Positions 12,870-30,887 of a stretch of DNA of 33,210 nt are shown here, in pieces. Source of the DNA: Candidatus Sumerlaeota bacterium (lineage in GTDB: Bacteria > Sumerlaeota > Sumerlaeia > JADFCW01). How positions within the stretch are numbered: the stretch's first letter is position 1; the number at the start of each line of letters is the position of its first letter. Made by a program: the position numbers and the translations under genes. Location: the NCBI GenBank assembly GCA_017161705.1, contig JADFCW010000039.1:1-33210 (forward strand), in the 5' to 3' direction. The notes beneath the pieces are model-generated. The model did no database searches. It saw only the letters and a program-made list of their open reading frames with translations, and had not been told where the DNA came from.

Positions 12870-14327
12870 CTACAGATCGTGAATGCCCACGCGCGTTTCG
12901 TAGCGCACCACGCCCTTTTCATTGACCTGGTAGCCGAACTGCTTCCAATAGGCTTCGCGCGGCTCGAACCTGTCGCCCGTGCGTTCCAGCCACCCATTCA
13001 ACTCGCGGTCCAGTTCCTCGCGAATCTGCCGATGCGAGGCCGACTCCACGAGGTTGTTCATCTGATAGGGGTCCTTTTGGTTGTCGAAAAGCAACCACGG
13101 GCCGCTTCGAGTCCGCACAAAAGTGTATCGCTCGGTTCGGACGCCGCGCCATTCGGGTATCGGCTCGCCGAACGGACAATGATTGGCGATCAGGGTGGAA
13201 GCAGGGCCTTTGCTGTTCCGTCCCAGCACAATATCCGATAAATCACAGCCCTCGGTTCCGCGGGGAATCGGCACGCCGGCCAGACCCAGCAACGTCGGCA
13301 TGATGTCGGGCACATTGAACAGAACGGGCGTTCGGCGGCCGGCGGCTACGCGGCGCGGATAGACCAGTACAAAAGGCACGTGCACCGACTCGTCCCACGG
13401 CTTTTGTTTTTTCTGCATGCCCTGCGAGCCTAGCATGTCGCCGTGATCGCTGGTGAACACAACGATCGTATCGTCGGCGCGGCCGCTTTTCTCCAGCGCA
13501 TCCATCAGACGCCCGAAGTTTCGGTCTAAAGCCTCAATGTGCGAATAGTATCCGGCGATGTCCTCGCGCCAACGCTGCTCGTCCTGGCAGTTGGGCGGCA
13601 GTTTGATCTCCCGCGGATCGAACGTCTTGTATTCTTTGGGCATAAGCTGATAAGGGTCGTGGGGCGGTCCCCAGGACATGAACAGGCAGTAGGGCCGCTC
13701 CGTGCCGTGAGTGCGGACATACTCGATGGCGAGGTCGGTCTGATGATCGGCGTCGTAGCCCTCGATCCAGATGGGCGTGGGATCGTCGCGATAGTAGTGC
13801 GACTTCATATAGTTATGCGTACAGTCGGCGGCGGCCCAATAGTCGAAGCCCTGGCGCCGCGGACCGGGCGGCGTGAATCCGCCGCGCTTGTCGCCATCCA
13901 GATGCCACTTGCCGATATAGCCCGTGTCGTAGCCGGCGGCCTTGAGCGATTTGGCGATGGTGGGTAATTCGGTGTTCAACCGCACATCGTTCACGCATAA
14001 ACCGTGGCGGAGCGGGTAAAGGCCGGTCAGAAGCGACGCGCGATAGGGCGTGCACACCGGGTTGCACGACACAGCGTTGTCGAAAATCAGGCCGCGCCGC
14101 GCAAAACGGTCGAGATTGGCTGTTCGCACCTGCTCGTTGCCCATCCAGCCGGCGGCGCTGGCGCGCATCTGGTCGGCGAAGACGAAAAGGATGTTGGGCC
14201 GTGAAACAGGACCGGCGGTTCGTCCTCTGGAACATGAATACAAAACCGACGATGCGGTCGAACCAACGACCGCGGCCTGAACGACAGATTGCTGCAGAAA
14301 CTCGCGTCTGTTCATAGTTGAGGTCAT
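12870..14327 (-). CDS. Tat-exported sulfatase (alkaline phosphatase superfamily)
   Basis: This 485-residue type I sulfatase removes sulfate esters. It opens with a twin-arginine signal (MNRREFLQQS plus a hydrophobic stretch). The formylglycine motif CxPxR is CTPYRASLLTG, with Cys92 as the residue to be oxidised. The calcium-site residues begin with FVFADQ (Asp52), GKWHLDG holds the catalytic Lys and His, and TSDHGDMLGSQG gives the distal metal ligands. CTPYR rather than CSPSR is a known variant. The start is ATG 14327, with GGAG 10 bases upstream; ATG 14315 is a possible inner start. Activation requires a formylglycine-generating enzyme encoded elsewhere. The substrate is probably a sulfated polysaccharide, inferred only from family and neighbourhood. 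A 15-bp palindrome lies about 140 bp upstream. Confidence 0.95.
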   Translation of the reverse strand: MTSTMNRREFLQQSVVQAAVVGSTASSVLYSCSRGRTAGPVSRPNILFVFADQMRASAAGWMGNEQVRTANLDRFARRGLIFDNAVSCNPVCTPYRASLLTGLYPLRHGLCVNDVRLNTELPTIAKSLKAAGYDTGYIGKWHLDGDKRGGFTPPGPRRQGFDYWAAADCTHNYMKSHYYRDDPTPIWIEGYDADHQTDLAIEYVRTHGTERPYCLFMSWGPPHDPYQLMPKEYKTFDPREIKLPPNCQDEQRWREDIAGYYSHIEALDRNFGRLMDALEKSGRADDTIVVFTSDHGDMLGSQGMQKKQKPWDESVHVPFVLVYPRRVAAGRRTPVLFNVPDIMPTLLGLAGVPIPRGTEGCDLSDIVLGRNSKGPASTLIANHCPFGEPIPEWRGVRTERYTFVRTRSGPWLLFDNQKDPYQMNNLVESASHRQIREELDRELNGWLERTGDRFEPREAYWKQFGYQVNEKGVVRYETRVGIHDL

Positions 14328-15267: not shown

Positions 15268-17472
15268 ATGAGAGAGAAGACCCACAAACCCCGCGGAGCG
15301 GCAGCAGTGATTGCTGTGAGTGCGTTCCTGGGCTGGTGGACTCGCGCCGCTGCCGCGGACACGATTATCCTCTGGACGGAGCGCGGCACTACAACCTCGG
15401 TCGAGGGCGAGTTCACCAGCGGTCCAACCGGCGGCCTCTTGCGTTTGAGCGGTTCGGCCGGCGCCATGGAGATTCCGCTCGACCCAGCCCGAGTGGTTCG
15501 CATCATTCGCAAGACCACACCGTCGGCCGCGCCGCATCCCCCAAGAACATCTTTGCCGTCCGCCGGTCCGGCGGTTCCTGCTCCAGAGGGCGACAGTTCG
15601 CACTTGGAAACGCGCCCGTTGCCCACGCCGCCGATCGGCATCCCGACCACGCCCAGGTCTCTGGCCACTCCGCCGCCGCCGATCAGCGTTACGCCCTATC
15701 CAACGGCAACAGCCGTGCCGACAGCCGCGCCCAGTATGGACCTCCCATCTTTGTCCCCAGCCGCGGCCCCGGCAGTTGCCCCCCCGGGAGCTGTCCCCTC
15801 TGCTGTTGCGGCGAGGCCGTCGGTTCCGCCGCCATCCCGCTCTCTCACGCTTGCTTCCATTGCGCAGCGGCTTAAAAAACAGGACTGGACCGCATTCGGC
15901 GATCTGCTCGATTGGGCGCTCAGCGAGGACGTGCTGCCGTTTCTAATCGGCGTTCCCTTGTTCATTGCGGTCTTCTGGGTGATGCCCAACAAACTGTTGT
16001 ATGCGCTCGCGCGGCGGGGCGACGTGGCAGCCTCGATCTGGGTGCTGCGGGTCAAATGGCTAGGCGTGCTTGCACTTCTGGGTTATCTCGCCGGGAAGGT
16101 TCGGATGCCGCGACGGCCCAAAAGCCGCTGCCCGATCTGCAACAAGGCGATAGATGATCCAGAGGAGTATGCTGACTTCAATTTCTATGTTTGCCCCCAT
16201 TGCGGCGAAAACATCACGCCCGTCTATGATCTCAACAGCTACATGCAGCATTTGATCGAACAGCTTGACCGCGAAGTGCATCAGCGGCGCGCGAAGCGGC
16301 CTGAATTTGTGACTGAAAAGGACGCCACAACCAAGCTCGTCCGGGCGATTATCACGCGCGCCGTCCGCTCGCGCGCCAGCGACATCCACATTGACACCAG
16401 CGCCGAAGGCGCTGTCGTCCGCGAGCGCGTGGACGGCGTCCTCCTGGACATGCTGGCGCTGCCCAAAAGCGTCGTGCCTCCGGTGGTCTCCGCGATCAAG
16501 GTCATGGCCAAACTCGACATTGCCGAGCGTCGTATTCCGCAGGACGGCAAGTTTTCGACCTGGGTGGATCGCAACGATATTGACGTGCGGGTAAATACCT
16601 CGCCGGCTATGCACGGCGAAAAGGTCAGCATGCGCCTTCTGGACAAGCGCGCCATTGCCGTGGGGCCGGCGGGTCTGGGCCTCGAAGGACAGAACCTTGC
16701 TCTGTTCGATCAGGCGATTCACCGCCCTCACGGAATGTTGATTGTCACAGGGCCGGCGGGTTCGGGCAAATCCACGACGCTCTATGTGGCGTTGAATGTG
16801 ATCAACACGGGGGAGAAAAACATCATCACGCTCGAAGACCCCATCGAATACGAAATGAAGGGCGTGACACAGATGCAAGTCAACCCCGCCGTCAATTTCA
16901 CGTTTGCAACAGGGCTGCGCACCATTGTGCGGCAGGACCCTAACGTGATCATGGTCGGCGAGATTCGTGATAAGGAAACCGCCGAAATGGCCATCGAGTC
17001 GGCCATCACCGGCCATTTGTTGATGACAACCATGCACACCATAGACACCACCACGGTCTTCACGCGGCTGGCGGACATGGGAATAGACTCCAGGCGCTAT
17101 GCATCGGCTCTGGCCTTGATCGTGGCCCAGCGCCTCGTGCGCGTCAACTGCGGGGAATGCCGGCGGCCGTATGCGCCGGATCCGCGGCAGCTCGAGCAGT
17201 TGCGCCTGTTGCAGAGCGCCAAGGATATTGTTTTCCTCAAGGGCTATGGCTGCGCCCGGTGTTTGGAGACGGGTTACTACGGCCGGACCGGTTTGTTTGA
17301 GATTCTGGCGCCCGACCGCGAAATCGTGGCCATGCTCGAGCAGAACCTGCCGGCCTCGCGAATCCGCGAGGCCGTGCGGCGCAAAGGCATGCGCAATATT
17401 CGCGAGGAGGGAGTATTGAAAGTAATGCGAGGCCAAACAACGATCGAGGAAGTGATCCGGGCCACAACCTAG
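15268..17472 (+). CDS. GspE/PilB-type secretion ATPase with exported N-terminal domain and membrane anchor
   Basis: The C-terminal 390 residues are a canonical type II secretion/type IV pilus assembly ATPase. Walker A is GPAGSGKST (495-503), the Asp box is LEDPIEY, Walker B is IMVGEIRD (561-568), and the His box is HLLMTTMHT. A tetracysteine zinc site is formed by Cys628, 631, 662 and 665, as in PilB/GspE. The N-terminal half is not. It has a signal-peptide-like segment (residues 1-30, basic n-region, AAAVIAVSAFLGWW, then AxA), a small beta domain (31-82) ending IPLDPARVVRI, a Pro/Ala-rich linker (83-192), hydrophobic segments at about 222-240 and 264-278, and a CPIC/CPHC zinc ribbon (288-312). 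The usual MshEN domain is missing. ATG 15268 is preferred over TTG 15199. No pilin, platform or secretin gene is adjacent. The ATPase itself must act in the cytoplasm, which constrains the topology. Confidence 0.93.
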   Translation: MREKTHKPRGAAAVIAVSAFLGWWTRAAAADTIILWTERGTTTSVEGEFTSGPTGGLLRLSGSAGAMEIPLDPARVVRIIRKTTPSAAPHPPRTSLPSAGPAVPAPEGDSSHLETRPLPTPPIGIPTTPRSLATPPPPISVTPYPTATAVPTAAPSMDLPSLSPAAAPAVAPPGAVPSAVAARPSVPPPSRSLTLASIAQRLKKQDWTAFGDLLDWALSEDVLPFLIGVPLFIAVFWVMPNKLLYALARRGDVAASIWVLRVKWLGVLALLGYLAGKVRMPRRPKSRCPICNKAIDDPEEYADFNFYVCPHCGENITPVYDLNSYMQHLIEQLDREVHQRRAKRPEFVTEKDATTKLVRAIITRAVRSRASDIHIDTSAEGAVVRERVDGVLLDMLALPKSVVPPVVSAIKVMAKLDIAERRIPQDGKFSTWVDRNDIDVRVNTSPAMHGEKVSMRLLDKRAIAVGPAGLGLEGQNLALFDQAIHRPHGMLIVTGPAGSGKSTTLYVALNVINTGEKNIITLEDPIEYEMKGVTQMQVNPAVNFTFATGLRTIVRQDPNVIMVGEIRDKETAEMAIESAITGHLLMTTMHTIDTTTVFTRLADMGIDSRRYASALALIVAQRLVRVNCGECRRPYAPDPRQLEQLRLLQSAKDIVFLKGYGCARCLETGYYGRTGLFEILAPDREIVAMLEQNLPASRIREAVRRKGMRNIREEGVLKVMRGQTTIEEVIRATT

Positions 17473-17488
17473 CATACGGCCGACCGTC

Positions 17489-18937
17489 TCACTTCATCTT
17501 CAGCAGCGCACAGCCTTCCCTGCTGCTCCCGCCCTTCCACACATCGTACTTCGGGTCCGCGTAGCGATCGAAAAAATCGTCGAGACGCCGTTGCAAGGTT
17601 CGGCGGATGGCCGCCATGTCCGACGCTGCGATGAGGTTGGTCGTTTCGCCCGGGTCTTTTCGCAGATCATAGAGTTCATCCGGCCCGTCCGGGTGGCGGC
17701 GGACAAGTTTCCATTCCGGCGTACGAACCACGCGCGTATTGAGAAATTCATAAAAGATCACATCCTCCCACTCAGCCTCCCCGCCGCCAAGCAATGGCGA
17801 GGCGTCGCGGCCGGGCGATTGCGGAAAGTGTGCGCCGGATTGTCCGAGGCCGAGATAGCTTACGAGCGTCGGCGCCACATCGTAAGTACAAACCATTCGA
17901 TCGCATTCCCGCCCCGCTCCGATGGCACCCGCGTGGCGGATAATCAACGGAATGTGCATCGTTTCGTCAAAGGCATTGAGCGGGCGCGTGTGGTCGGCCA
18001 TTCCCCAGATGCCGTGATGGCCGCCGCTCCAGCCTTGGTCGGCGAGAAAAACTACAACGGTCGTCGCGTCGAGATTCAACCGCTTCAGCGCCGCCATGAC
18101 TACGCCCACCCCGTCGTCCACGCCGCTGACCTCAGCGGCCATCCGCCGGATCGCTGTGTCCGTATTGATATACTCGCGGTTGTGTACCAGCCACGGATGC
18201 ACGGGCAGTCGCGGAAAGGACGGCAGAGATTTATCGGCGTAATAGGCGGCGTGTCGGTTTCGCGCCGGCTCGGCCATGCTCTTGCCTAAACCATAGGGAC
18301 CATTGTAGGCCAGATAGAGGAAAAAAGGCCGGTCGCGGTTTTGTTCGAGGAAACGAACGGCGTGGCGCGTCCAGAAGCCGGTCAAATACTCCGGTTCGCG
18401 GCGCACCTTGCCGTTCTCGATGATCTCCGCATCATAAAAGGTTGTCGTATGACCGTGCGGCATGGTAACCCAATATGAGAAACCCTCCTGAGGTGTGAGA
18501 TTGCCGCCCAGATGCCACTTGCCCACAAGGCCGCAGGTATAACCAGCCCGGCCGAGAATTTTCGGCAAACTCGGAAACTCCGCGATCGTGCAGTAGGCCT
18601 TAGGACCGGTCTGCGCGCCGCCTGCAGATAGATACGTATGAACGCCATGCTGCGAGGGAATGAGACCCGTCAGGAGCGAAGCACGGGTCGGCGAACAGAC
18701 AGCGTTGCAAGAGAAGGCGCGGGTGAAACGAACGCCTTCGGTGGCGAGGCGGTCAATATTCGGCGTGCGAATATCGGGATTCCCATAACAGCCGAGAGTC
18801 CATGCACCCTGATTGTCGGTCAGGATGAGCAGGAGGTTAATCGGGCGCGAAGAGGTTCCGGCTCCGGACGGCCGGCGCAGCAACCCGGCGGCCGCAGCCG
18901 CCGTCAGCCCCAGAAAACTCCGCCGCGCGAGCGTCAT
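17489..18937 (-). CDS. Tat-exported sulfatase
   Basis: This 482-residue type I sulfatase begins with a twin-arginine signal (MTLARRSFLGLTAAAAAGLL). The formylglycine motif is CSPTRASLLTG (Cys81); Asp41 in LLILTDNQG is the first metal ligand, GKWHLGG contains the catalytic Lys and His, and VFLADQGWSGGHHG provides the distal metal ligands. The form LADQGW-x-GGHHG, with Gln where many sulfatases have His, distinguishes it from the sulfatase at 12870. ATG 18937 has GAGG 7 bases upstream and begins 22 bp after the glycosidase-like gene, so it is the last gene of the minus-strand run starting at 26979. It ends 16 bp from the convergent ATPase gene. The probable role is desulfation of a polysaccharide attacked by its operon partners. 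Confidence 0.95.
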   Translation of the reverse strand: MTLARRSFLGLTAAAAAGLLRRPSGAGTSSRPINLLLILTDNQGAWTLGCYGNPDIRTPNIDRLATEGVRFTRAFSCNAVCSPTRASLLTGLIPSQHGVHTYLSAGGAQTGPKAYCTIAEFPSLPKILGRAGYTCGLVGKWHLGGNLTPQEGFSYWVTMPHGHTTTFYDAEIIENGKVRREPEYLTGFWTRHAVRFLEQNRDRPFFLYLAYNGPYGLGKSMAEPARNRHAAYYADKSLPSFPRLPVHPWLVHNREYINTDTAIRRMAAEVSGVDDGVGVVMAALKRLNLDATTVVVFLADQGWSGGHHGIWGMADHTRPLNAFDETMHIPLIIRHAGAIGAGRECDRMVCTYDVAPTLVSYLGLGQSGAHFPQSPGRDASPLLGGGEAEWEDVIFYEFLNTRVVRTPEWKLVRRHPDGPDELYDLRKDPGETTNLIAASDMAAIRRTLQRRLDDFFDRYADPKYDVWKGGSSREGCALLKMK

Positions 18938-18959
18938 CGTTGCACCTCGACGCTTGAGA

Positions 18960-20366
18960 TCACTCGCGAATATACAGCACCGCGTCGTTGGGGAAGGGCG
19001 AATCGAAAGTCTGTTTCCCGGCCACCCAAACCATTCCACCCTCCCGCGTTTCGCCGGTTTTGGGATCGAACCATTCGACCGTGACGCGCCTCGACGCTCC
19101 TGACAAATCCACAGTGACCGGCCCGCTTGTGGGCAAGTAAACAAGATACTCCTTGCCCGGATTGGCCAGACAGAAACCCGACGAGGCCAGTTCGCCCTGA
19201 GGTGTCATGGCGGTGAGATCCATGCGGCGAGCATAGGACAGGGTATAGCCCATGTTTTTCCGGACACCAAGACCGTCGAGATTGGGTCGAGTTTGGAGAA
19301 CCCGCTCGTCGTAAGGGTCCATGAAAATCGGATTGTGGCCGCGAGTAAAGCTTTTCCACACCCACGCTCGGTTGCCCCAAATCCCTCCCAAATGATCGGT
19401 GTCGTTGAGGACTACTTTCTTGCCGTCAGCCGGCGGCGGATTGTCGCGGTAGCCGCCTTCGAAATTGGGCGAAATCCATTCGGCCGGGCTGGCAAACAGG
19501 TCGGCGTTCCTTCCGCCTTTGTATTGAAAGGTCATCCCGACGGGATGTTGCTTGGGTTTGGTCTTTTCATACTCGTGAATGAAGTTGATCATGTGATATT
19601 GCCACGGAGTCGAAGCAGGATGGTTTTCATTGGAGATTTCATAAAGCACATTGTCGAACTCGTTGACGGTATCAATGACTTTGCGGACATAGCGTTCCTG
19701 CAGTTCCGTAATGGTGCGATTTCCCAACTCATGCACCTCGGTTCCTATGCCATCGCCGTTGGCGTCTGCCTCTATCCCGTTGATATTATTGTTGCCGTTG
19801 AAGGGGTGGCTTTTCCATCCATTCTTCATGAACTGCACGCCCCAGCCCTCGAAAAGCATGACCGAGACATAGATGCCCCGGTCGCCCGCCATGGCAACAC
19901 GCTCGCGCAGGCGCTGAAAATACTCGGGATCGAACCGGTTGAGATCGAACTTGGGTTTGCCATCGAGCGCCAGACCCGGCCCGGTGCGAGCATAGACCAG
20001 TGGACGGACAAAATGGCGTCGGGCCTGCTTCTCGCGGTTGGCCGCCGTATCCCATGAGGACAGTTCCCACGTCCACATGCGGATGAAATTATGGTTCAGG
20101 TTTGCGAGCATGTCGAGATAGGCTGGAAAATCAAAGGCCGGCGGCGGATCGCTTTCGCCCATATCCACAAGGTTGTTCCATGTATGCGAGCCGGTCAGAT
20201 AGATGGCGCGGCCGCTGGCGTCGGTGAAATAGCGCGGATTGGCCGAGCACACGCGGAGCGGGCCGTTCATGCGGCCCGGCCCCCGAACGGCCAGACGGGC
20301 GCAAGCGGCCATGCCCGACAAAACAAAGGTGGTCAGCAGCAGAAAAGTGGCGATTCGGGACTTCAT
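18960..20366 (-). CDS. glycosidase-like exported lipoprotein with C-terminal PF12904-type domain
   Basis: This 468-residue protein has a strong AAGGAGG ribosome site before ATG 20366. The signal sequence ends GMAAC, a plausible lipobox with Cys22 as the lipidated residue. The catalytic part looks like a TIM-barrel glycosidase of the DUF4038/DUF6298 type. RYFTDASGRAIYLTGSHTW (46-64) is the N-terminal strand signature, FIRMWTWELSSW is the strand 2 region, and NVLYEISNENHP provides Asn246-Glu247, the acid/base position of clan GH-A. A clear Glu nucleophile was not found; VVLNDTDH (318-325) stands where one might be expected. The C-terminal 75 residues (FCLANPGKEYLVYLP, VTVEWFDPKTGE) match the 'putative collagen-binding' beta domain that often follows such barrels. 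The loop NGIEADANGDGIGTE resembles a dockerin-type calcium loop. The substrate is unknown. Confidence 0.87.
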   Translation of the reverse strand: MKSRIATFLLLTTFVLSGMAACARLAVRGPGRMNGPLRVCSANPRYFTDASGRAIYLTGSHTWNNLVDMGESDPPPAFDFPAYLDMLANLNHNFIRMWTWELSSWDTAANREKQARRHFVRPLVYARTGPGLALDGKPKFDLNRFDPEYFQRLRERVAMAGDRGIYVSVMLFEGWGVQFMKNGWKSHPFNGNNNINGIEADANGDGIGTEVHELGNRTITELQERYVRKVIDTVNEFDNVLYEISNENHPASTPWQYHMINFIHEYEKTKPKQHPVGMTFQYKGGRNADLFASPAEWISPNFEGGYRDNPPPADGKKVVLNDTDHLGGIWGNRAWVWKSFTRGHNPIFMDPYDERVLQTRPNLDGLGVRKNMGYTLSYARRMDLTAMTPQGELASSGFCLANPGKEYLVYLPTSGPVTVDLSGASRRVTVEWFDPKTGETREGGMVWVAGKQTFDSPFPNDAVLYIRE

Positions 20367-20467: not shown

Positions 20468-23400
20468 TTATTTTGACTCTTGCAAACATAACAGGCTGCC
20501 GTCCTCCAACGAAACCAACAACCGCCCGGGAACGGCAATCATGCCGTCGAATACCGGCGGCGTATCCAGCGGCTGCTCGCTAATTTTCGATCCGTCTTTC
20601 GGCGACACGGCCACCAGCCGCGCGCCAAGCCGGCCTTCGAATGCCGCATAGGGATCTTTCTCGTCCAGCACGTCGGGCGTACCGGCGACAAACAGTGCCT
20701 CCGCGGTTTTCACCATCGCCCGAATCCGCACAGGCAACCAAACCGCCCAAACGGGCGGCTCGGCCCGCGTGTAGCCGATGCCTTTGTCCTGACCGAACGC
20801 CTCGCTGTCCAATGTGCGCAACCCACTGGAAGCCATGTAGGCCGATTGCGGCAGCCATTCGACCGGCGGTCGGGCACCCTCGTCGCCCACGATCTGCGGC
20901 TCGTTGCTGTTGGCGTCGGCAAACAGCAAATAGCCTTCTTTTCCGGGGAAAAACATGGGACTGTGGCAGTTGCGGCGATAGAAGGGATTGACCGCATACG
21001 TCTGCTGATCGTCCACCACCAGAAGCTGGCCGCTCTTCGAGGCCTGATTGGCCAGCTGAAATCCCGGCCATCGTTTGGCATACATCCAAAACGCGCGATT
21101 GTACCACGAGCCGTCGAGAAGACCGGAGGTCGAGAAAACATGCAGCCCAACGTCGGACTCGCCTTTGCTCGAAAGCACTTTGCAGGATTGCTCCTGAAGC
21201 GCCGGTGTCAGGCGCTTCTGCCGCATGTAGATCGCATCGCCCTCGCTGACAAGAACATCAGAGTTGGCGCCCGGAATATAAAAGGCCATATCCCGAGCAT
21301 ACTCTTTTCCATCAGGAAAAGGCCCGGTCAGCACACCACGATGAACCACTTTGCCGGTCAGCGGCTCCAGTCCGTAGAGATAAATGCCCCCGTCCAGATA
21401 GGTCGAGCGGCCGGCAGTAACATAAGCAATTCCATCGCGAATGAGTACACTGCCATGCACGGGCCACGCCGATTCGATGCGGTCGTCAACGACGATACGG
21501 CGATGGGCGGGAGCGGCGAGAAAACGCCAGACAAGAGCGCCGTCGTCTGCGCGCAAACAATAAACCCAGCCGTCCGCGCTGCCGAAGAGAACAAGACCTT
21601 TCTCGACGGTTGGCGGAGAATCAATTCGTCCGCCGGCGACATAAGTCCACACCGGCTTTCCCGTGGCGAGGTCCAGTGCGTAGAGTGTTTGTGCTTCGAT
21701 TGCTGAAACATAGACTCGATCGCCGACGGCAACCGGCGCACTGAGACGGCCCGTGATCTTCGCACGCCACGCTTCGCGCAAATTGTTCTGAACGCGCGCC
21801 GAAGTTGAACCGTGGCGGGCCGGATCGTGCCGGAACGTGGGCCAGTCATCGGAATTTTGGATTTTCGATTTTGGATTTTGGATCGAGCCGTACGCAGGGC
21901 CGCGTTCGAGGCGTTGGTCATCACGGATGGGCCGCACCGGTTCGGGCGGCTCCGGACCGAGAGCCACAAAGCCAAGCACCTTCCCGCCCGGCTGGCAGAA
22001 ACACTGGTCCGGCGGCGAGTAGAGCAAGCCGTTGCAAGGAACCATGCCCATCTTGCAGGCGCCGCGCACAAAGTTGTTCTGCCCGTGCCGACCGTTCTCC
22101 AAGTCCACAAACTCCGCGCCTTCCATCGAGGTAATCATATAGCGCGCCGTCGCCCTGTTGCGATAGCAGCGGTGATGATGCTCCGGACTGATCAGATTGG
22201 GGACAAAGATCCGTTTCTTCTCTTCACCTGTACGCAAATCATAGCCAACGGCCAGCGCGTTGTCAGCATCCCTGCCCACCGGCTGCTGCGCATCGTCCAC
22301 ACACTGGACGCCCGGCCAAACCACCCCATCCACAATAAATAAATCTTCCGGAGCCATACGGCCGACCTGGATTCCGGTCCGAAACCAGAGCATTCCCCCG
22401 TTGGTCGCATCGTGGGCTTCGAGCGTTTGTGCGCCGCGCGTCACTACCACCCCGTCGCAGAGAACCATCGTGCGAACCGACGGCTCGATCAGTTGCGTGT
22501 GCCAGACTTCATCGCTGGTTTTGAGGTCAAGGGCCGTGATCTTGCCGCCAGACAGATAGACCACCTGACCGCTGTGAATCGCCAGCATCGTGTCGTTGAT
22601 CGAGGGAACATTCTTTCGCCACAGCACATCGCCCGTTGCACCGCGGATGGCAATCAGACAGTTCGGCGATGCCTCGGCCTCCTTGCCGCGCCGCTTGAGG
22701 ACTGACGCCTCGGGCGGCTCGGAATAGACTACAACAATGCCGTCATTGGCGACGATCTGTCGAACCGGCGAGGTTCCCTCGACGGTGGCTAGCGTTCTGC
22801 CCGTTGCTGCTTCGAGGATCGAAAGCGGCGACTGATAGCCGAGCGTGGCGTAGAGGCGGTCGCCGTCGGCGACCAGACGGCGCTGGTTTTCATCGGGCAC
22901 AACAGTGCGGCCGCCGCGAATGACCGTCCAGTCAATACCCTGAAATTTTTCGACTGCCCACTGCGGCCATCCCCACGGCTCGACGGGCCGCCGCCAGAGA
23001 AGTTTGCCGTTGAAGGCGTCGCGGCAAATCAACGCCCAGCGCTCGGGAAGGCGCTGGTCGGTAATGCCGATGATGCCTTCATCGAGGAGATAAAAAACAC
23101 GCCCGCCGCCGATGACCATTGCCTCGAAGCCCGACGGTGTCTCATGGCTGCGCAACCAGAGCGGACCGGCTGTCCATTGCACCGAGCGCGGCGGGCCGAC
23201 AACGCTGTCGCGGGCGACAGCATTGTTGCTCGCGTCATGGAGGAAATGCGTCCATTCGTCAATCGTAGCGGGCCGCGGCTTGACGGTCTTGGTCCATGCG
23301 CCCCCCTGTTTGACATAAGCAACGCCATTGGGTACGAGAACTCGCAGCACCTCGCTCGTGGGGATTTCCCCGAGATTCTCGGAGACAACCAGATTGACGA

Positions 23401-23716
23401 GATTGTCGGCATAGGGCAGACGCGGCCCTGTCCACTGCTCGACGGCGACCTTGCCATACAGGCCGAGCGATTGAATATGTTGGCGGGAGGCTGCGACATT
23501 TTTTGCGTCGGCATCCAGGCCGTGAACGACGTATTGGTCGCTTGCACAAAGTGCAGCCGTGAGCCGTCCGTCGCCGCAGCCGATATGCACAATCAAGCCG
23601 CCTTTGACGCCAGCCGCTTGGAGAATTTCGCCGGCCGGGTTGCTTGCGCCCCCCAAAGCTGCGGCGGCGCACATGACAAATCCCACGATTTGCATTTTTC
23701 TCCGGTACCCTTTCAT
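20468..23716 (-). CDS. exported methyltransferase-fold / PQQ-like beta-propeller fusion, copy 1
   Basis: This 1082-residue protein has a signal peptide (1-24). A class I methyltransferase-like domain follows (about 28-150): LIVHIGCGDGRLTAAL is the SAM-binding loop, HGLDAD holds the acidic residue, and LPYADNLVNLVVSENLGEIP is motif IV. The rest consists of two PQQ-type beta-propeller regions, with repeats such as DAFNGKLLWRRP, LDLATGKPVWTYVAGG and RADDGALVWRF. A central segment carries HHHRCYRN (513-520) and a Cys set (554, 561, 572, 574) in GMVPCNGLLYSPPDQCFC. Residues 611-622 are a repeat-derived linker, listed separately. The ATG has GGAGG upstream. It is 26 bp downstream of its paralogue and 101 bp before the glycosidase-like gene. 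A SAM-dependent enzyme outside the cytoplasm would lack SAM, so the fold may bind another ligand. Function unknown. Confidence 0.9.
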   Translation of the reverse strand: MKGYRRKMQIVGFVMCAAAALGGASNPAGEILQAAGVKGGLIVHIGCGDGRLTAALCASDQYVVHGLDADAKNVAASRQHIQSLGLYGKVAVEQWTGPRLPYADNLVNLVVSENLGEIPTSEVLRVLVPNGVAYVKQGGAWTKTVKPRPATIDEWTHFLHDASNNAVARDSVVGPPRSVQWTAGPLWLRSHETPSGFEAMVIGGGRVFYLLDEGIIGITDQRLPERWALICRDAFNGKLLWRRPVEPWGWPQWAVEKFQGIDWTVIRGGRTVVPDENQRRLVADGDRLYATLGYQSPLSILEAATGRTLATVEGTSPVRQIVANDGIVVVYSEPPEASVLKRRGKEAEASPNCLIAIRGATGDVLWRKNVPSINDTMLAIHSGQVVYLSGGKITALDLKTSDEVWHTQLIEPSVRTMVLCDGVVVTRGAQTLEAHDATNGGMLWFRTGIQVGRMAPEDLFIVDGVVWPGVQCVDDAQQPVGRDADNALAVGYDLRTGEEKKRIFVPNLISPEHHHRCYRNRATARYMITSMEGAEFVDLENGRHGQNNFVRGACKMGMVPCNGLLYSPPDQCFCQPGGKVLGFVALGPEPPEPVRPIRDDQRLERGPAYGSIQNPKSKIQNSDDWPTFRHDPARHGSTSARVQNNLREAWRAKITGRLSAPVAVGDRVYVSAIEAQTLYALDLATGKPVWTYVAGGRIDSPPTVEKGLVLFGSADGWVYCLRADDGALVWRFLAAPAHRRIVVDDRIESAWPVHGSVLIRDGIAYVTAGRSTYLDGGIYLYGLEPLTGKVVHRGVLTGPFPDGKEYARDMAFYIPGANSDVLVSEGDAIYMRQKRLTPALQEQSCKVLSSKGESDVGLHVFSTSGLLDGSWYNRAFWMYAKRWPGFQLANQASKSGQLLVVDDQQTYAVNPFYRRNCHSPMFFPGKEGYLLFADANSNEPQIVGDEGARPPVEWLPQSAYMASSGLRTLDSEAFGQDKGIGYTRAEPPVWAVWLPVRIRAMVKTAEALFVAGTPDVLDEKDPYAAFEGRLGARLVAVSPKDGSKISEQPLDTPPVFDGMIAVPGRLLVSLEDGSLLCLQESK
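21851..21883. repeat. in-frame A-rich repeat (IQNPKSKIQNS type) in propeller linker
   Basis: Read on the minus strand, the heptamer-like unit AATCCAAAATC recurs and is translated as SIQNPKSKIQNS. This AT-rich sequence contrasts sharply with the GC-rich gene around it. Short repeats that translate to NPKSKIQN are familiar intergenic and linker repeats in many bacterial genomes (from general knowledge). Here the insertion keeps frame, between the two propeller regions. Confidence 0.7.
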
Positions 23717-23742: not shown

Positions 23743-26700
23743 TCAGTTACCCAAACATGCTAGACGGCCATCCAGACATGCAATAAAAAGCCGCCCGTAC
23801 CCGGCGGCCATCCCGTCCCATACCGGCGGTGCAGACAATTTGGACTCGGAAAGCAGTTTGCCCTCCGCGGCCGAAAATACGGCCAGCACGCCGCCCTTTC
23901 GCCCTTCCCACGCGCCGTGCGGGTCGGTGGGATCCACAATGTCCGGCGAGCCGGCGACAAAGAGCCTCTCTCCAGCTAGCACCATCGCCGTAATCCGAAT
24001 GGGGACTTGTCGTTCCCAGATCACATTGGAATCAGGCGCGGATTTCCCGGGGCGGCCGGCCTTTTTCTCTTTGGGTCGGCCGGCGGGCTTTTCCGGAGAA
24101 AAGGCCATAAGGCGATAGCCCCCGACGCCGGGTTTGAATACCGTTTCGCGACTGCGCGACGGATAGATCTCCACGCCATACGCGGCGTCTTCGCTCATAA
24201 CCATCAGTCCGGTAGTTTCGGCGCTGCCGACTTTATAGAAGGTGCGATTGAACCAACTGGAGTCGAGAAACCCGGCGGTTGTGTAAAGATGACGGCCTTC
24301 GGCAGCGCCCGGCGCCGAGATATTCATCTGCCGGATGAAAACGTTAGCACCGTCCGTGCCGGGAATGTCATTGAGGAAACCGGGAATCTTGTTAGGGGCC
24401 TGCTTGATCATCTTCCCCGTGTCTGGGTCGGGGCTATAGTGAATTTCTTCGCGGGCCGCGCGCCCGGTTTCCGGATCGAGGGCATAGACACGAATGCCGC
24501 CGTCCAGATACGTCGAGCGGCCGGCGGCAAACCAGACTTTGTCGTCGTGAACCAGGACGCTGCCGGGAACCGGCCAGGGCGATTCAATCTGATTGTGGGC
24601 AATGACGCGGCGTTCCTGCGGAGCGGCGTCGAACCGCCAGGCCAACGCGCCGTCGGATGCCCGAAGGCAATAGACGCGCCCGTCGGCCGACCCGAAGAGG
24701 ACGCGGCCTTTGTCAATGGTGGGCGGCGAATCCACGCGGCCGCCGGCTGTGTATTGCCAAAGCCTTTTTCCGCTTTGGGCATCGAGGGCGTGGACGGTGT
24801 GCCGGTCCACATCGGCGACGAGAACCTTTCCATCCGCAACAACTACGCCGCTCAGCCGTGCACCGACCTGAGACTGCCAGATCGGTTTCGGTTCAGCGGC
24901 AACGGATGCCGCGGTGGCGCCGCTGCGGCGCGAATCGCCCCGGTAGGTCGGCCATTCAGATCCATTGCGGATTGCTGATTGAAAATTGTGGATTGAATCG
25001 TAGGCGGGGCCGATCTGGAGACGTTCGTCGGCCTGTTTTCCCGGCGCAGCGAGGTCGGTTGACTTATCGCCAGTCTCGGGCGCGAGGGCAAAAAACCCGC
25101 TTAACTTGGCCTCGATATAGCACCAGCAGGGATGCGGGGCCACATACAGCAGGCCGTTGCACGGCAGGTTGCCCAACAGACAGCCGCTTCGCACCCAGTG
25201 GTTGAGAGAGTTTTCTCCGCTAGCCAAGTCCACAAACTCGACCCCGCGGCGCGAGGACATCAAAAACTGCACCGTGCTTCGGTTGCGGTAGCAGCGGTGA
25301 TGATGCTCCACATCGAAAATCTCTCGGGTGGAAAATCGTTGTCGGACTTGCCCTGTCTTCAGATCTATGCCTTGAATCGCATAATCTACCACGGATGTGT
25401 TGCCGGCGCGCACGCCGCCGGCCGGCGCCGACGCGAACTCAGCGGGCGCATCCTCGTGAGTCCATACCAAACCATTGGCAACAAACACATCCGGCGGCGT
25501 GCAATGGCCCCACCCGCCATAGTGGCGCTTCCACATGGCCCGGCCGGTCTTGGCATCGAATGCATAGAGCGTCCCCGGCATAGTGTGATACGTGTGGGGA
25601 GCATTGGGCTCCGGTTGCGCGACTAGGACAACCCCGCCGTGATACACCATGACGGCAAGGCGATACTCATAGACAGCCCCGAAACCCAGTTTCCGCACCG
25701 CGTGTTCAGGCAGGGACGGCCGCTCGATCCGCCAAAGCCGATCGCCCGAGTCCAGCGAAAGGCTCTCGATCGTATCTTCGGTGAGCAGGAACACCTGCCC
25801 GTCGCCTGCGGCAAGCTCCAGGCGGCCATAAGGATCCTTGCCCTGTGTTGATGAAAAACCCGTAAACCCGCTCTTCTTCCAAAGTATCCTGCCCGTTTCC
25901 GGATCGAGCGCGCAGACGTGCTTGGCGGTGGTGTATTCCTTGCCTTCGCGCGGCTCATTGAGTGCAACGACCAGCTTGCCCTCGGTATAAAGTATTTCGT
26001 CCGCGTTGACCGTCTCGAAATACGTCCGCCGCTCGGCCCCGGTCCGCGCATCGAGGGCGGTAACCGGCGCATAGGCCCCGAGCGTCACATAGACCGTATC
26101 GCCGACAGCCACGAACCGCTTGGCGAGATGCGGCGGCATGGTGAACCGGCCCACTCCTTGATTGCCGGCGGTGCCGCTGAAAAAATCCGAACCCCAGTTA
26201 GGAATCGGCCGTTTCCACAAGAGCACGCCATTGAAGGCGTCGCGCGCCACGAGCATCCATTTGTCGGGAACCGTCCCGTCCACCCCCGTTAGTGTTTCAT
26301 CGCAAATATAAAAGAGCCGTCCGCGCGCAGACACCATAGCGCTAACGCTGGGGGTCCAGCCGTGGCTGCGCGCCCAAACAGGTCCGGCCGTCCATTGCAA
26401 ATGCCTGGGCGGCCCAACCACCTTGTCCGCCGCCACCGGGTTGCCGCCCGCGTCGTGCAAATTGTGCGTCCACTCGTCTATGTCTTTCGGCCATGGCTTG
26501 ACCCTTTTTGTCCATGCACCGTCGCTGCCGCGAATACAAACGACTCCCAGAGGTGCAAGGACGCGCAGGACCTCGTCCATCGGTACGCTGCCGAGGTTTT
26601 CAGCGACAAGCAAATTGACCATGTTGTCCGCATACGGCAACCGATGGCCCGACCAAAGTTCCACCGAGACCCGTCCATAGAGCCCTTGCGACTGGATGTA

Positions 26701-26979
26701 CTTCCGGGCCGCAGCGACGTTTTCTGCATCGGCATCCAGGCCGTGAACCACGTATTGGTCGTTTGCACAGAGCGCGGCGGTGAGCCTGCCGTCGCCGCAG
26801 CCCAGATGAACAATCAAGCCGCCCGTAATCCCGCCGGCATTGAGAATTTCCAGCGCGGACTGGCGCGGGACAGGAGCCGCGAAGAACACAACAGCGGGAA
26901 GAATGAGCGCGCTATATCGCAACCAGAACCAGCCACCGGCGGCAAATCGTTTTCGCTGACCCGAAGCTGTCTGTTCCAT
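23743..26979 (-). CDS. exported methyltransferase-fold / PQQ-like beta-propeller fusion, copy 2
   Basis: This 1078-residue protein is the tandem paralogue of the preceding entry, with the same architecture. It has a basic N-terminus and one hydrophobic export segment (about 22-36). The methyltransferase-like domain carries LIVHLGCGDGRLTAALCAND (54-73), HGLDADAENVAAARKYI and LPYADNMVNLLVAENLGS. The propellers follow, with LDPETGRILWKKSG, LDAQSGKRLWQYTAGG and RASDGALAWRF. It shares with copy 1 the segments VEHHHRCYRNRST and LPCNGLLYVAPHPCWC. ATG 26979 has AGAGG 6 bases upstream; the open frame extends to 27171 without a convincing start. It is the first gene of a four-gene minus-strand run and diverges from the GH20-like gene. 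Duplication with only moderate identity suggests an old event and diverged ligands. Function unknown. Confidence 0.9.
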   Translation of the reverse strand: MEQTASGQRKRFAAGGWFWLRYSALILPAVVFFAAPVPRQSALEILNAGGITGGLIVHLGCGDGRLTAALCANDQYVVHGLDADAENVAAARKYIQSQGLYGRVSVELWSGHRLPYADNMVNLLVAENLGSVPMDEVLRVLAPLGVVCIRGSDGAWTKRVKPWPKDIDEWTHNLHDAGGNPVAADKVVGPPRHLQWTAGPVWARSHGWTPSVSAMVSARGRLFYICDETLTGVDGTVPDKWMLVARDAFNGVLLWKRPIPNWGSDFFSGTAGNQGVGRFTMPPHLAKRFVAVGDTVYVTLGAYAPVTALDARTGAERRTYFETVNADEILYTEGKLVVALNEPREGKEYTTAKHVCALDPETGRILWKKSGFTGFSSTQGKDPYGRLELAAGDGQVFLLTEDTIESLSLDSGDRLWRIERPSLPEHAVRKLGFGAVYEYRLAVMVYHGGVVLVAQPEPNAPHTYHTMPGTLYAFDAKTGRAMWKRHYGGWGHCTPPDVFVANGLVWTHEDAPAEFASAPAGGVRAGNTSVVDYAIQGIDLKTGQVRQRFSTREIFDVEHHHRCYRNRSTVQFLMSSRRGVEFVDLASGENSLNHWVRSGCLLGNLPCNGLLYVAPHPCWCYIEAKLSGFFALAPETGDKSTDLAAPGKQADERLQIGPAYDSIHNFQSAIRNGSEWPTYRGDSRRSGATAASVAAEPKPIWQSQVGARLSGVVVADGKVLVADVDRHTVHALDAQSGKRLWQYTAGGRVDSPPTIDKGRVLFGSADGRVYCLRASDGALAWRFDAAPQERRVIAHNQIESPWPVPGSVLVHDDKVWFAAGRSTYLDGGIRVYALDPETGRAAREEIHYSPDPDTGKMIKQAPNKIPGFLNDIPGTDGANVFIRQMNISAPGAAEGRHLYTTAGFLDSSWFNRTFYKVGSAETTGLMVMSEDAAYGVEIYPSRSRETVFKPGVGGYRLMAFSPEKPAGRPKEKKAGRPGKSAPDSNVIWERQVPIRITAMVLAGERLFVAGSPDIVDPTDPHGAWEGRKGGVLAVFSAAEGKLLSESKLSAPPVWDGMAAGYGRLFIACLDGRLACLGN
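24963..24996. repeat. in-frame A-rich repeat (IHNFQSAIRN type) in propeller linker
   Basis: Read on the minus strand, this AT-rich stretch contains CAGCAATCCGCAAT and is translated as SIHNFQSAIRN, the NPQSAIRN class of short bacterial repeats. It lies at the same place in the protein as the IQNPKSKIQNS repeat of copy 1, just before the conserved (D/E)WPT(F/Y)R string that opens the second propeller. Confidence 0.6.
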
Positions 26980-27100
26980 CGCCCTACCTCTTTCCATGTT
27001 TTTTCGCCCAACACCAAACCGCGCTATATGGCGGAACGATGCTTTTACCGAAATGGGCGTCCCGCTGGCCGCCTGTTCACGTTCCTCCCATAAATTCACC

Positions 27101-27127
27101 GCATCGAACATGCAAGATGTTTGATGC
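27101..27127. promoter_or_regulatory. dyad in divergent promoter region (candidate operator 1)
   Basis: GCATCGAACAT (27101-27111) and ATGTTTGATGC (27117-27127) are inverted copies with one G/A difference (a G-T wobble) and a 5-base centre. The site lies 122 bp upstream of the propeller operon start and 146 bp upstream of the GH20-like start, so one factor could control both directions. Confidence 0.4.
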
Positions 27128-27152
27128 ATGCAAGTAAAATTCTTGAAAAAGC

Positions 27153-27191
27153 TGGACCCGTAGCGGTCCACCCTCTAATTGCTCCAGAGGG
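27153..27191. promoter_or_regulatory. two adjacent short dyads in divergent promoter region
   Basis: TGGACC-(6)-GGTCCA spans 27153-27170, and CCCTCT-(9)-AGAGGG spans 27171-27191. They abut each other directly and lie 26 bp from the larger dyad at 27101-27127. They may be operator half-sites or a structured leader of the GH20-like transcript. No convincing -35/-10 pair was found in this 293-bp region. Confidence 0.3.
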
Positions 27192-28431: not shown

Positions 28432-29511
28432 CTAGTCCGTTTGGCGGGCAAGATGCAGAAGCGCGGTCACAAGGCCGGCGGCCACAACCATCATGGCGAG
28501 AAACAACGCAAACGGTCCCCATTGCGGATGAATAGCGAGTTCGCCTAACTGAAAATGGGGGGCGAGCGCCGCCCGCCGGATTCCATCGCGGGCGAACCCA
28601 ATCATGATCAGTCCGAGCACGTAAACCGCCATAGGCAGAATCAATGTCGAAAGAGTCGGCGACCTGCGCGCCTTGACGAATAGCAGGAGAGAGCCGGCCA
28701 GACAGCCAATGGCCAGCACAGAAAACAGAGACACCCAGCGGAAGTCGAAAACGGCTTTCCGCTGTTCGGACGGCAGAAAGATAACCAGCAATATTCCCGC
28801 GGCGATCTGCAACCCCATGCACATCGGCGCCGCACGCAGCCCAATCTCCACCGCCGCACGGTCCGCTTGTTCGTCGTAAGCGAGACCTGTTTTCCCCAAA
28901 AGCATAACAAACATGGCTCCTAAAGCGGCAAACCCCAACAGGGCGAATAACACACGCCCGACCATTCCTCCACCGTGGTAAAAACCCGCCCCGTGCAACC
29001 GCCACACCGACTCCCACGCCGACGGCGTTTGAAAAAGCGTCATATTGCCCGACAAAATCATGGCCAGCACCAACAGTATCCCGGCAAGAATCGCAGGCAA
29101 AAACGGCCCCAACACTTTCCCGGCGGCCAGACGAACCTTCGCCACATAGAAAAGATATGTCGTCCCAATCACGAGCGGAATGATCAGCAGCCACCACAGC
29201 GCCATCATCACGTTGGCGGAGTAAAAGAAATGCCCATAGACCACCTGCACAAACAGCAGCGGTGCAACACCCAGGGTCACGCCCATGGAAAGCATGAACG
29301 GCAAAAAACCAAGGATCGCCTGATTCAGCCGTGCCCGCGCCGCATCGCCGCGGCCCGTCACGGCATTATGCAAAACAATCAGCGTCCCGCCGAACACCGC
29401 TCCGACAAACACCCAATGCAGCGCCAGCGTGGCGTTCAGCAGCACCAAAAGCAAAAGCGGATGCGCGGGCAATCCCAGCATGTCCGGCGCGGGTATGAGT
29501 TGCGAATTCAT
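28432..29511 (-). CDS. polytopic membrane subunit of the cytochrome bd-like oxidase (second subunit)
   Basis: This 359-residue protein has about 9-10 membrane helices. The N-terminus, PAHPLLLLVLLNATLALHWVF with GVAPLLFVQVVYGHFFYS after it, contains several His residues within helices, which could ligate haem. YHGGGMVGRVLFALLGF follows near residue 175. The sequence does not look like standard CydB, and some features resemble a second CydA-like chain. The assignment rests mainly on its partner: ATG 29511 shares its A with the TGA stop of the CydA-like gene (TGATG), with AGGGGG upstream; GTG 29514 is the alternative. Such coupling indicates a fixed-stoichiometry complex. It ends 4 bp from the convergent GH20-like gene. 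It could instead be a quinone- or cytochrome c-linked module that is not an oxygen reductase. Confidence 0.75.
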   Translation of the reverse strand: MNSQLIPAPDMLGLPAHPLLLLVLLNATLALHWVFVGAVFGGTLIVLHNAVTGRGDAARARLNQAILGFLPFMLSMGVTLGVAPLLFVQVVYGHFFYSANVMMALWWLLIIPLVIGTTYLFYVAKVRLAAGKVLGPFLPAILAGILLVLAMILSGNMTLFQTPSAWESVWRLHGAGFYHGGGMVGRVLFALLGFAALGAMFVMLLGKTGLAYDEQADRAAVEIGLRAAPMCMGLQIAAGILLVIFLPSEQRKAVFDFRWVSLFSVLAIGCLAGSLLLFVKARRSPTLSTLILPMAVYVLGLIMIGFARDGIRRAALAPHFQLGELAIHPQWGPFALFLAMMVVAAGLVTALLHLARQTD

Positions 29512-30842
29512 CACTTCCCCCTGCGAGTCAGCGTGGCCATATATGCAGCCAATGCATCTTTTTCTGCGTCTGTCCCCGGAAAGGGCGGCATCATCGGCCG
29601 CTGCTCATGCATCGTGTCTAGATACGAACGCAGGGTTTCCCGTGTCCAGCCCCCGATCAGCGGCTGAACCGCGTTGTATCCCGCATAAACCTGGTGGCAC
29701 GCTAAGCAAGCCGCTTTGAACACCGCATACCCCTTTTCCTCCGGGGTCAGTTCCGCAATGGTCCTCCCCAAAGGCAAAACCCACGACGCCGCCGACAGAA
29801 CTCCCTTTTCGCGCAGCACAGCAAGGCTCGCCCGTTTGTCCAGTGCCTGTCCTTTTTCGGTTGTTACTCCCGTTGAATACATAAACCCCTCGATGACATA
29901 GGGCTTGCGGGCTCCCTCGCGCACAAACTCGAAGCAGGCGTACCCGACAAACGCAAAGAAGATCAGGAGCGAAGCCCCCAGAACCGACGGATTCCATTCG
30001 CGCCGCACCATCGCCAGTATGGTTCCCAATGCCAGCAGGCTGAAGCACGCCATCCCCATCGCAAAAAACAGGGTCATCGCAATGGCGCCGCCCTGAATAA
30101 ACTGCTGGGACCGTTCGGGAATGACCGAAAACGCCCACGGCAGCAGCACCAAACATGCCAGCGCCGGGAGCATCATCCTGTAGGCCAGCCGCGTCATTTT
30201 CTCGCGTACCGCCGCAGGCACCGTTCGCATCAGCGCCATCAGCAGGAGCGCAACAGCACCGGCTAGCGCCAAAGACACGAAAAAACGCATCAGCGTTGTC
30301 GGCCAAAAGGACGGATTGAAAAACGCTTTCCAAAAACCATACGGGGCGAGAGGTTCCCAACTCCCCGGAGTCAGCATGAACGATAGAATGCCATTGATGA
30401 GAACGAGCGTGACCGTCGAGGATACAGCCAGAATCCACCCAATGGCATTGTGCGCAGACGGCCGGATCCGGTCCCACGTATAAACATATAGATAAATCGC
30501 CACAATATCCACGATGAACATGGTCCATTCGGCAGCCCAGCCCCACACAAACAAGTGGATCATGCTCGAGATCGCTCGCGGACTTGCCACCGACGTGGCA
30601 AACCAGATTCCCACGCCCGTCATCGCGCCGAGCACATAAGGGACAAGCAATACCGTGAACGCGTAGGTTTTTAAAAACGCCCGCGTCTCACTGTCGCCCT
30701 CGCGGTTCGCGCGCCGCTCGGCCAGCGCCAGCAGAAAACTTGCGCCCACGGAAAACTGCGCGATAAATACGTGCGGGATCGCAATCGCCGCAATCAGCAA
30801 ACTTCCGCCGAAAAACGGCAAATCGAAAATAGGATACTCCAC
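29511..30842 (-). CDS. cytochrome bd-like oxidase subunit I fused to cytochrome c domain
   Basis: This 443-residue protein has about nine membrane helices in the CydA pattern. IPHVFIAQFSVGASFLLALAE holds His24, the counterpart of E. coli CydA His19; TGVGIWFA and GWAAEWTMFIVDI (Glu105) follow. RFFVSLALAG stands where CydA has a His-containing RF-x-H-x-x-x-AG segment (the haem b558 ligand), so that His appears replaced. No Q-loop is seen. The C-terminal 75 residues are a cytochrome c domain, with CLACH (379-383) and a Met in RPMMPPFPG as probable axial ligand. This suits the cytochrome bd-like families that use cytochrome c rather than quinol. GTG 30842 is chosen because AGGAG (30850-30854) lies 7 bases upstream; TTG 30887 would lie inside a palindrome. 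It is followed directly by the second subunit gene. Confidence 0.88.
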   Translation of the reverse strand: MEYPIFDLPFFGGSLLIAAIAIPHVFIAQFSVGASFLLALAERRANREGDSETRAFLKTYAFTVLLVPYVLGAMTGVGIWFATSVASPRAISSMIHLFVWGWAAEWTMFIVDIVAIYLYVYTWDRIRPSAHNAIGWILAVSSTVTLVLINGILSFMLTPGSWEPLAPYGFWKAFFNPSFWPTTLMRFFVSLALAGAVALLLMALMRTVPAAVREKMTRLAYRMMLPALACLVLLPWAFSVIPERSQQFIQGGAIAMTLFFAMGMACFSLLALGTILAMVRREWNPSVLGASLLIFFAFVGYACFEFVREGARKPYVIEGFMYSTGVTTEKGQALDKRASLAVLREKGVLSAASWVLPLGRTIAELTPEEKGYAVFKAACLACHQVYAGYNAVQPLIGGWTRETLRSYLDTMHEQRPMMPPFPGTDAEKDALAAYMATLTRRGK

Positions 30843-30866
30843 CTTTCCTCTCCTCGCTCCGTCCGT

Positions 30867-30887
30867 TTGGGAAAAATCTTTTCCCAA
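30867..30887. promoter_or_regulatory. perfect 21-bp palindrome upstream of oxidase genes (candidate operator)
   Basis: TTGGGAAAA-ATC-TTTTCCCAA has perfect 9-bp arms. It lies 25-45 bp upstream of the GTG start and just downstream of the predicted -10 box at 30901-30906, the usual place for a repressor site. As RNA it would also form a 9-bp hairpin in the 5' leader. The regulator is unknown. Confidence 0.5.

Follow-up and report, generated by a model that had tools for sequence, protein, structure and literature searches.

The gene examined here encodes an ATPase of the GspE/PilB family that carries its own predicted membrane anchor behind a putatively exported N-terminal arm, and the layout recurs in two bacterial phyla. 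The window, which is the whole stretch of 33,210 nucleotides analysed, comes from a Candidatus Sumerlaeota metagenome-assembled genome of 4.67 Mb in 395 contigs. Its reading frame runs uninterrupted from the ATG at 15268 to the stop at 17472 and encodes 734 amino acids, which from the N to the C terminus comprise a signal-peptide-like start, a small beta domain, a Pro/Ala-rich linker, a strong transmembrane helix (TM1), a weaker hydrophobic helix, a CPxC/CPxC ribbon and a complete ATPase (Table 1). As judged from the sequences, the domain order is conserved and both the catalytic and the zinc sites are intact.

Domain architecture and selection

To define the catalytic half, we combined profile, structure and alignment comparisons. 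The Pfam family PF00437 (T2SSE) matches residues 352-731 with 390 bits (gathering threshold 24.9) and covers profile positions 6-370 of 370, and the match to the PDB profile of PilB (5zfr) begins at profile position 110, directly after the ribbon. In a Foldseek search with the predicted ATPase half, the closest folds were PilF and PilB, with a TM-score by target length of ~0.94. The Walker A, Asp box, Walker B and His box are all present and their key residues are invariant in 26 relatives, among them the Walker A lysine and E565; the eight cysteines, four in the ribbon (C288, C291, C309, C312) and four in the tetracysteine site, are invariant in the same set.

Table 1. Features of the anchored ATPase gene, with positions in the window
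Feature	Residues	Positions	Strand	Basis
Whole gene, GspE/PilB-family ATPase with membrane anchor	734 aa	15268..17472	+	ORF reading; relative L039 (86%) aligned from residue 1
Signal-peptide-like segment: basic n-region, AAVIAVSAFLGWW, AAA/DT	1-30	15268..15357	+	sequence; relatives
Small beta domain	31-85	15358..15522	+	dN/dS 0.02; predicted strands; conserved in both phyla
Pro/Ala-rich linker, ~110 residues	86-195	15523..15852	+	pLDDT ~30; dN/dS 0.37
Predicted transmembrane helix (TM1)	222-250	15931..16017	+	hydrophobicity; AlphaFold model; conserved in alignment of relatives
Second hydrophobic helix	253-278	16024..16101	+	conserved Gly; weaker hydrophobicity; charge; AlphaFold model
CPIC-x17-CPHC zinc-ribbon-like motif	288-312	16129..16203	+	four Cys invariant, n=26; dN/dS 0.012
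ITPVYDLNSYMQHLIEQL segment	314-342	16207..16293	+	start of homology to soluble PilB/GspE
N2 and C-terminal ATPase domains (T2SSE)	352-734	16321..17469	+	PF00437 E=1e-116; Foldseek to PilF/PilB
Walker A GPAGSGKS	495-502	16750..16773	+	invariant positions
Asp box EDPIEY	523-528	16834..16851	+	alignment of 26 relatives
Walker B VIMVGE, catalytic Glu E565	560-565	16945..16962	+	
His box	H583..H590	17014..17037	+	alignment of 26 relatives
Tetracysteine zinc site as in PilB/GspE	C628, C631, C662, C665	17149..17262	+	alignment of relatives

The N-terminal half is less well defined structurally. The AlphaFold model of the full protein has high confidence for the ATPase alone and fair confidence for two helices at residues 223-250 and 253-278. 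A signal-like helix is modelled at residues 11-29, and most relatives have an equivalent hydrophobic start followed by D. The beta domain is modelled at low confidence with six short strands between residues 32 and 82, and with three strands when modelled alone; a two-sequence model reached a pLDDT of 67 at most, and Foldseek found no match for it below E=0.5. We noticed that another secreted protein (L187:519-2111) bears the same kind of beta domain, which looks like a shared envelope module that belongs to no Pfam family. Residues 82-193 are disordered in the model. The sequence-only reading had taken residues 31-192 as one putatively exported part made of a small beta domain and a linker; both elements stand, and the boundaries are now set at residue 85 for the end of the beta domain and at about 110 residues for the linker behind it. 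In most relatives a TPR domain of ~200 aa lies between the two. It is absent from the genus of the window, which by sequence comparison either lost it or never had it. The module of TM1 and the second helix matched no known family in a Pfam profile search.

For the comparison of selection along the chain, we used the best named relative for this gene, L039 from a Candidatus Sumerlaeia metagenome-assembled genome, which is 86% identical starting at residue 1. Between the two, dN/dS is 0.021 for the beta domain, 0.073 for the TM helix, 0.012 for the ribbon and 0.025 for the ATPase, against high values of 0.52 for the signal segment and 0.37 for the linker; these are rough values from a single pair in which synonymous sites are close to saturation in some segments. 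High dN/dS is usual in signal peptides. The split by domain matches what a signal peptide, a folded domain, a linker, a TM helix and cytoplasmic domains of a single polypeptide should show, and it indicates that the N-terminal half and the ATPase are one selected chain, rather than a chance fusion or an artefact. Taken together with the intact gene, the PF00437 match and the motifs, it bears out the earlier proposal that a secretion-type ATPase is fused to a signal-like segment, a beta domain, a linker and a ribbon.

Distribution and variants of the anchored core

The same domain order had been suggested as something to look for in related genomes, and it does recur, in Sumerlaeota and in a second phylum. 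With a profile that spans TM1 to the ribbon, the core of TM, ribbon and ATPase was found in 32 of 40 Sumerlaeota genomes, including 19 of the 20 high-quality ones, each of which has exactly one copy. The profile gave only three matches at E<1e-4 in 346 further bacterial genomes. Two of these led to the second phylum, where 9 of 14 genomes carry the core and where the members read at full length have the order signal peptide, beta domain, TPR-like region, Pro-rich linker, TM, ribbon and ATPase. The third (G167, with its sister G304) is a minimal form consisting of TM, second helix, ribbon and ATPase, in ORFs of 516-541 codons. A broader profile added four lineages (L253, L254, L255, L257) in which a TM module stands directly before the T2SSE domain and the ribbon is missing; the kinship of their TM module to the window's family is suggested by a weak profile match. 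The core, as read from these sequences, is thus TM, second helix and ATPase, usually with the ribbon, and the exported arm is optional yet widely kept.

Several families depart from this plan. In the Sumerlaeota families f2 and f11 (L032, L034, L038), several extra hydrophobic segments take the place of the exported arm; the last of them matches the TM module with E ~1e-12 and an earlier one matches weakly, a weak sign that the module may be repeated. Family f264 of the second phylum (L175, L176, L202, L203) lost the Asp box EDPIEY and the His box and retains the signal peptide, beta domain, TPR-like region, TM, ribbon and Walker A; it is possibly a receptor form in which the motor is dead. 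In G009 the ATPase gene is found in two ORFs with a stop close to Walker A (L186:445-3030), from either an assembly error or a broken gene. A phylogenetic tree resolved three groups: the Sumerlaeota sequences (support 99/100), those of the second phylum, and the soluble PilB/GspE proteins of the same genomes and of other phyla. The position of the root is unsure because of the long f264 branch, and by sequence the membrane form may have a single origin.

Comparison with known ATPases and their gene neighbourhoods

The window protein resembles PilB and PilF (PDB 5tsg, 5zfr, 5oiu) in its N2 and C-terminal domains, its Walker, Asp and His boxes and its tetracysteine site. However, those proteins are soluble and begin with an MshEN/GSPII N1 domain, whereas the window protein has the ribbon, the second helix, the TM and the exported arm in that place. 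The MshEN/N1 soluble domain had no match in the window protein, nor was it among the families listed for 18 N-terminal halves. With GspE/EpsE (PDB 4pht, 1p9r) it shares ~45% identity over the ATPase, and GspE gave the best NCBIfam score overall. GspE attaches to the membrane by binding to GspL (4pht is the GspE-GspL complex), whereas the window protein has its own TM. The retraction ATPase PilT, which is not known to have the tetracysteine site, belongs to the same superfamily and is an occasional gene neighbour. All three NCBIfam scores lie below their cut-offs: 478.3 against 630.25 bits for GspE (TIGR02533), 429.1 against 675.65 for PilB (TIGR02538) and 145.8 against 319.1 for the PilT family (TIGR01420). 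The layout also resembles that of minimal TM-anchored T2SSE proteins (L180, L244, L253, L254, L255, L257), which have an N-terminal TM and a second helix directly before the ATPase and, in two cases, a ribbon. They have no beta or TPR domain, and a signal-like start with a Pro-rich stretch is seen only in L257. A 2024 review of PilB describes a GSPII/MshEN-type N-terminal domain and does not contain the word 'transmembrane' (PMC11656802). Our keyword search of the open-licence literature found no account of a membrane-spanning PilB or GspE, and we therefore take the membrane-anchored layout as new, on a known type of ATPase.

To see whether the gene has a partner in a filament system, we inspected its flanks in the window and in relatives. 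No pilus or T2SS gene, and no GspF/PilC or (pseudo)pilin cluster, lies beside the ATPase gene within the window, and in most relatives it stands alone with no adjoining pilus gene. The statement of the sequence-only reading that no such gene is adjacent is thus accurate for the window and does not extend to some relatives. In the Sumerlaeota genomes G003, G020 and G028 the ATPase gene has a pilT gene on its own strand at most 3.5 kb away, three loci against 0.21 expected, with the caveat that the expectation is approximate, being drawn from the density of pilT-like genes in six genomes, and that the excess was seen post hoc. Among the minimal forms, pilT is adjacent or one gene away in G174 and G244; the order is ATPase, CvpA-like (Colicin_V), pilT at L253:2397-5747 and pilT, ATPase at L257:1246-4577. 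In G039 a T2SSF (GspF/PilC) gene lies two genes upstream, and the T2SSF and ARMT1-like genes run straight into the ATPase gene; this is the only T2SSF gene in the examined flanks of family members.

We also followed candidate partners and set them aside. An orphan PilC (G005, G019, G014), whose T2SSF gene lies ~100 kb away and has no adjacent ATPase, was dropped; it shares 73% identity with the PilC of the classical gspE-pilT-pilB-pilC cluster in G004, which implies that in all likelihood it works with another partner. The short T2SSF of the G039 type was rejected as a general partner, with matches elsewhere at or below ~31% identity. A conserved Sumerlaeota operon partner did not emerge, as gene clusters recur only within a family or among a few genomes.

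Proposed function, topology and alternatives

We consider it moderately likely that the protein serves as a motor ATPase anchored in the membrane and belongs to the GspE/PilB branch, which extends type IV filaments, with a cytoplasmic ATPase, a periplasmic arm and a platform encoded elsewhere. In such a machine, the signal peptide would export the beta domain and the linker, together with the TPR repeats in relatives, to the periplasm, TM1 would return the chain to the cytoplasm, the second helix would lie on the inner face, and the ribbon would stand in for the N1/MshEN docking domain of the soluble proteins. Six subunits could assemble into the usual ring, placing six TM helices and periplasmic arms around a GspF/PilC-type platform, so that the ATPase would drive a pilus or pseudopilus as a stationary motor with its own anchor. 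The arm might bind the cell wall, alignment proteins or cargo, and the genes for the platform and the filament would lie at other places in the genome. The link to type IV filaments is drawn from the intact motor half, whose closest matches are GspE and PilB despite scores below the two cut-offs, from the pilT genes near the ATPase gene in three Sumerlaeota genomes and near two minimal forms, and from the T2SSF gene in the G039 run. Three observations count against a motor: the lack of adjoining pilus genes in the window and most relatives, the several soluble PilB/GspE ATPases that genomes carrying the membrane ATPase already encode, and the loss of the Asp and His boxes in f264, a change that would be surprising in a motor.

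Current models treat PilB and GspE as a cytoplasmic ring that must be brought to the membrane, where it turns or pumps the platform protein. A ring of six membrane-fixed subunits could not spin freely, which would favour a static ATPase with a rotating platform and open that question to testing; it would also be a link between motor and periplasm that needs no adaptors of the GspL/PilM type and is conserved in two phyla. More tentatively, and on balance doubtfully, the ATPase ring itself may span the inner membrane with periplasmic TPR arms and so act as its own stator, reading or pushing on the periplasm directly, with a motor-dead receptor in some lineages.

A transmembrane signalling or gating ATPase is a rather unlikely alternative, in which the beta/TPR arm would sense the wall or a protein and the ring would drive a cytoplasmic output or a periplasmic movement, with no filament. 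Its main support comes from four genomes of the second phylum (L178:7277-12584, L179, L198, L201), where the ATPase gene comes after genes for two secreted proteins, first one with beta and TPR parts and then one with an FGE-sulfatase domain, and the orphan position of the gene in most genomes and the retained envelope half of f264 would also fit. However, the motor motifs and the tetracysteine site are invariant in Sumerlaeota, the catalytic half belongs to the motor branch of the superfamily, and some lineages have pilT and T2SSF neighbours.

Both the motor and the signalling readings place the arm outside and the ATPase inside, as had been proposed from the sequence alone together with a single crossing back and a peripheral or re-entrant second segment. 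Comparison with relatives agrees on all of these points. The summed octanol-scale value of TM1 is about -7 to -19 in all relatives but one, in which a different stretch was picked, and its flanks are mostly neutral or acidic on the N side and positive after the helix; the second segment, at about +4 to -13, is less hydrophobic, and in nearly all relatives it is flanked on either side by net positive charge. With a signal peptide in front, these values suggest that the arm is out, the ATPase in, and that the second helix probably does not cross but stays on the cytoplasmic side as an interfacial or re-entrant segment. An improbable arrangement has the signal segment as an uncleaved first TM, or the two later helices crossing as a hairpin with the N terminus inside. 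It could draw on the AlphaFold model, where helices 223-250 and 253-278 are adjacent with a two-residue break, and on relatives in which the second segment is quite hydrophobic. Against it stand the cleavage-like motif of the first segment, the rapid evolution of that segment and the positive charge around the second, and a hairpin with the N terminus inside would give no account of the signal segment.

Could the TM and second helix themselves be the platform, so that the ATPase moves pilins or another substrate with no GspF/PilC? The near absence of T2SSF from the family flanks and the conservation of the module even in minimal forms are compatible with this, but we judge it very improbable: a platform has three TMs and two cytoplasmic domains, for which the module is too small, and several T2SSF/PilC domains that could act in trans are encoded elsewhere in each of the Sumerlaeota genomes searched, in addition to the one in the G039 run. 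Given these domains, the earlier suggestion that the ATPase is coupled to the envelope without separate platform proteins is not supported. Finally, we rejected as hardly credible an internal start at Met280 (16105) that would make a soluble ribbon and ATPase the real product and the N-terminal half incidental. A ribosome-site-like GGGAAGG precedes this ATG in the window, but the nearest relative has GTG and no such site, the others have no start at that position, and strong purifying selection acts on the upstream beta domain and TM. Of the two findings named beforehand as refuting the fused design, neither turned up: no homologue in the family starts near residue 285-320, and no frameshift separates the N-terminal part.

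Elsewhere in the window, sulfatase genes flank the ATPase gene on either side (12870-14327 and 17489-19144, minus strand), and a sulfatase gene also adjoins the ATPase gene on contig L119 of the same genus. Two adjacent paralogues on the minus strand (20468-23716 and 23743-27171) fuse a SAM methyltransferase domain to a beta-propeller region of the PQQ/BamB type, an unusual pairing, and a further gene (29511-30887, minus strand) joins a membrane part resembling cytochrome bd subunit I and a cytochrome c domain in one protein.
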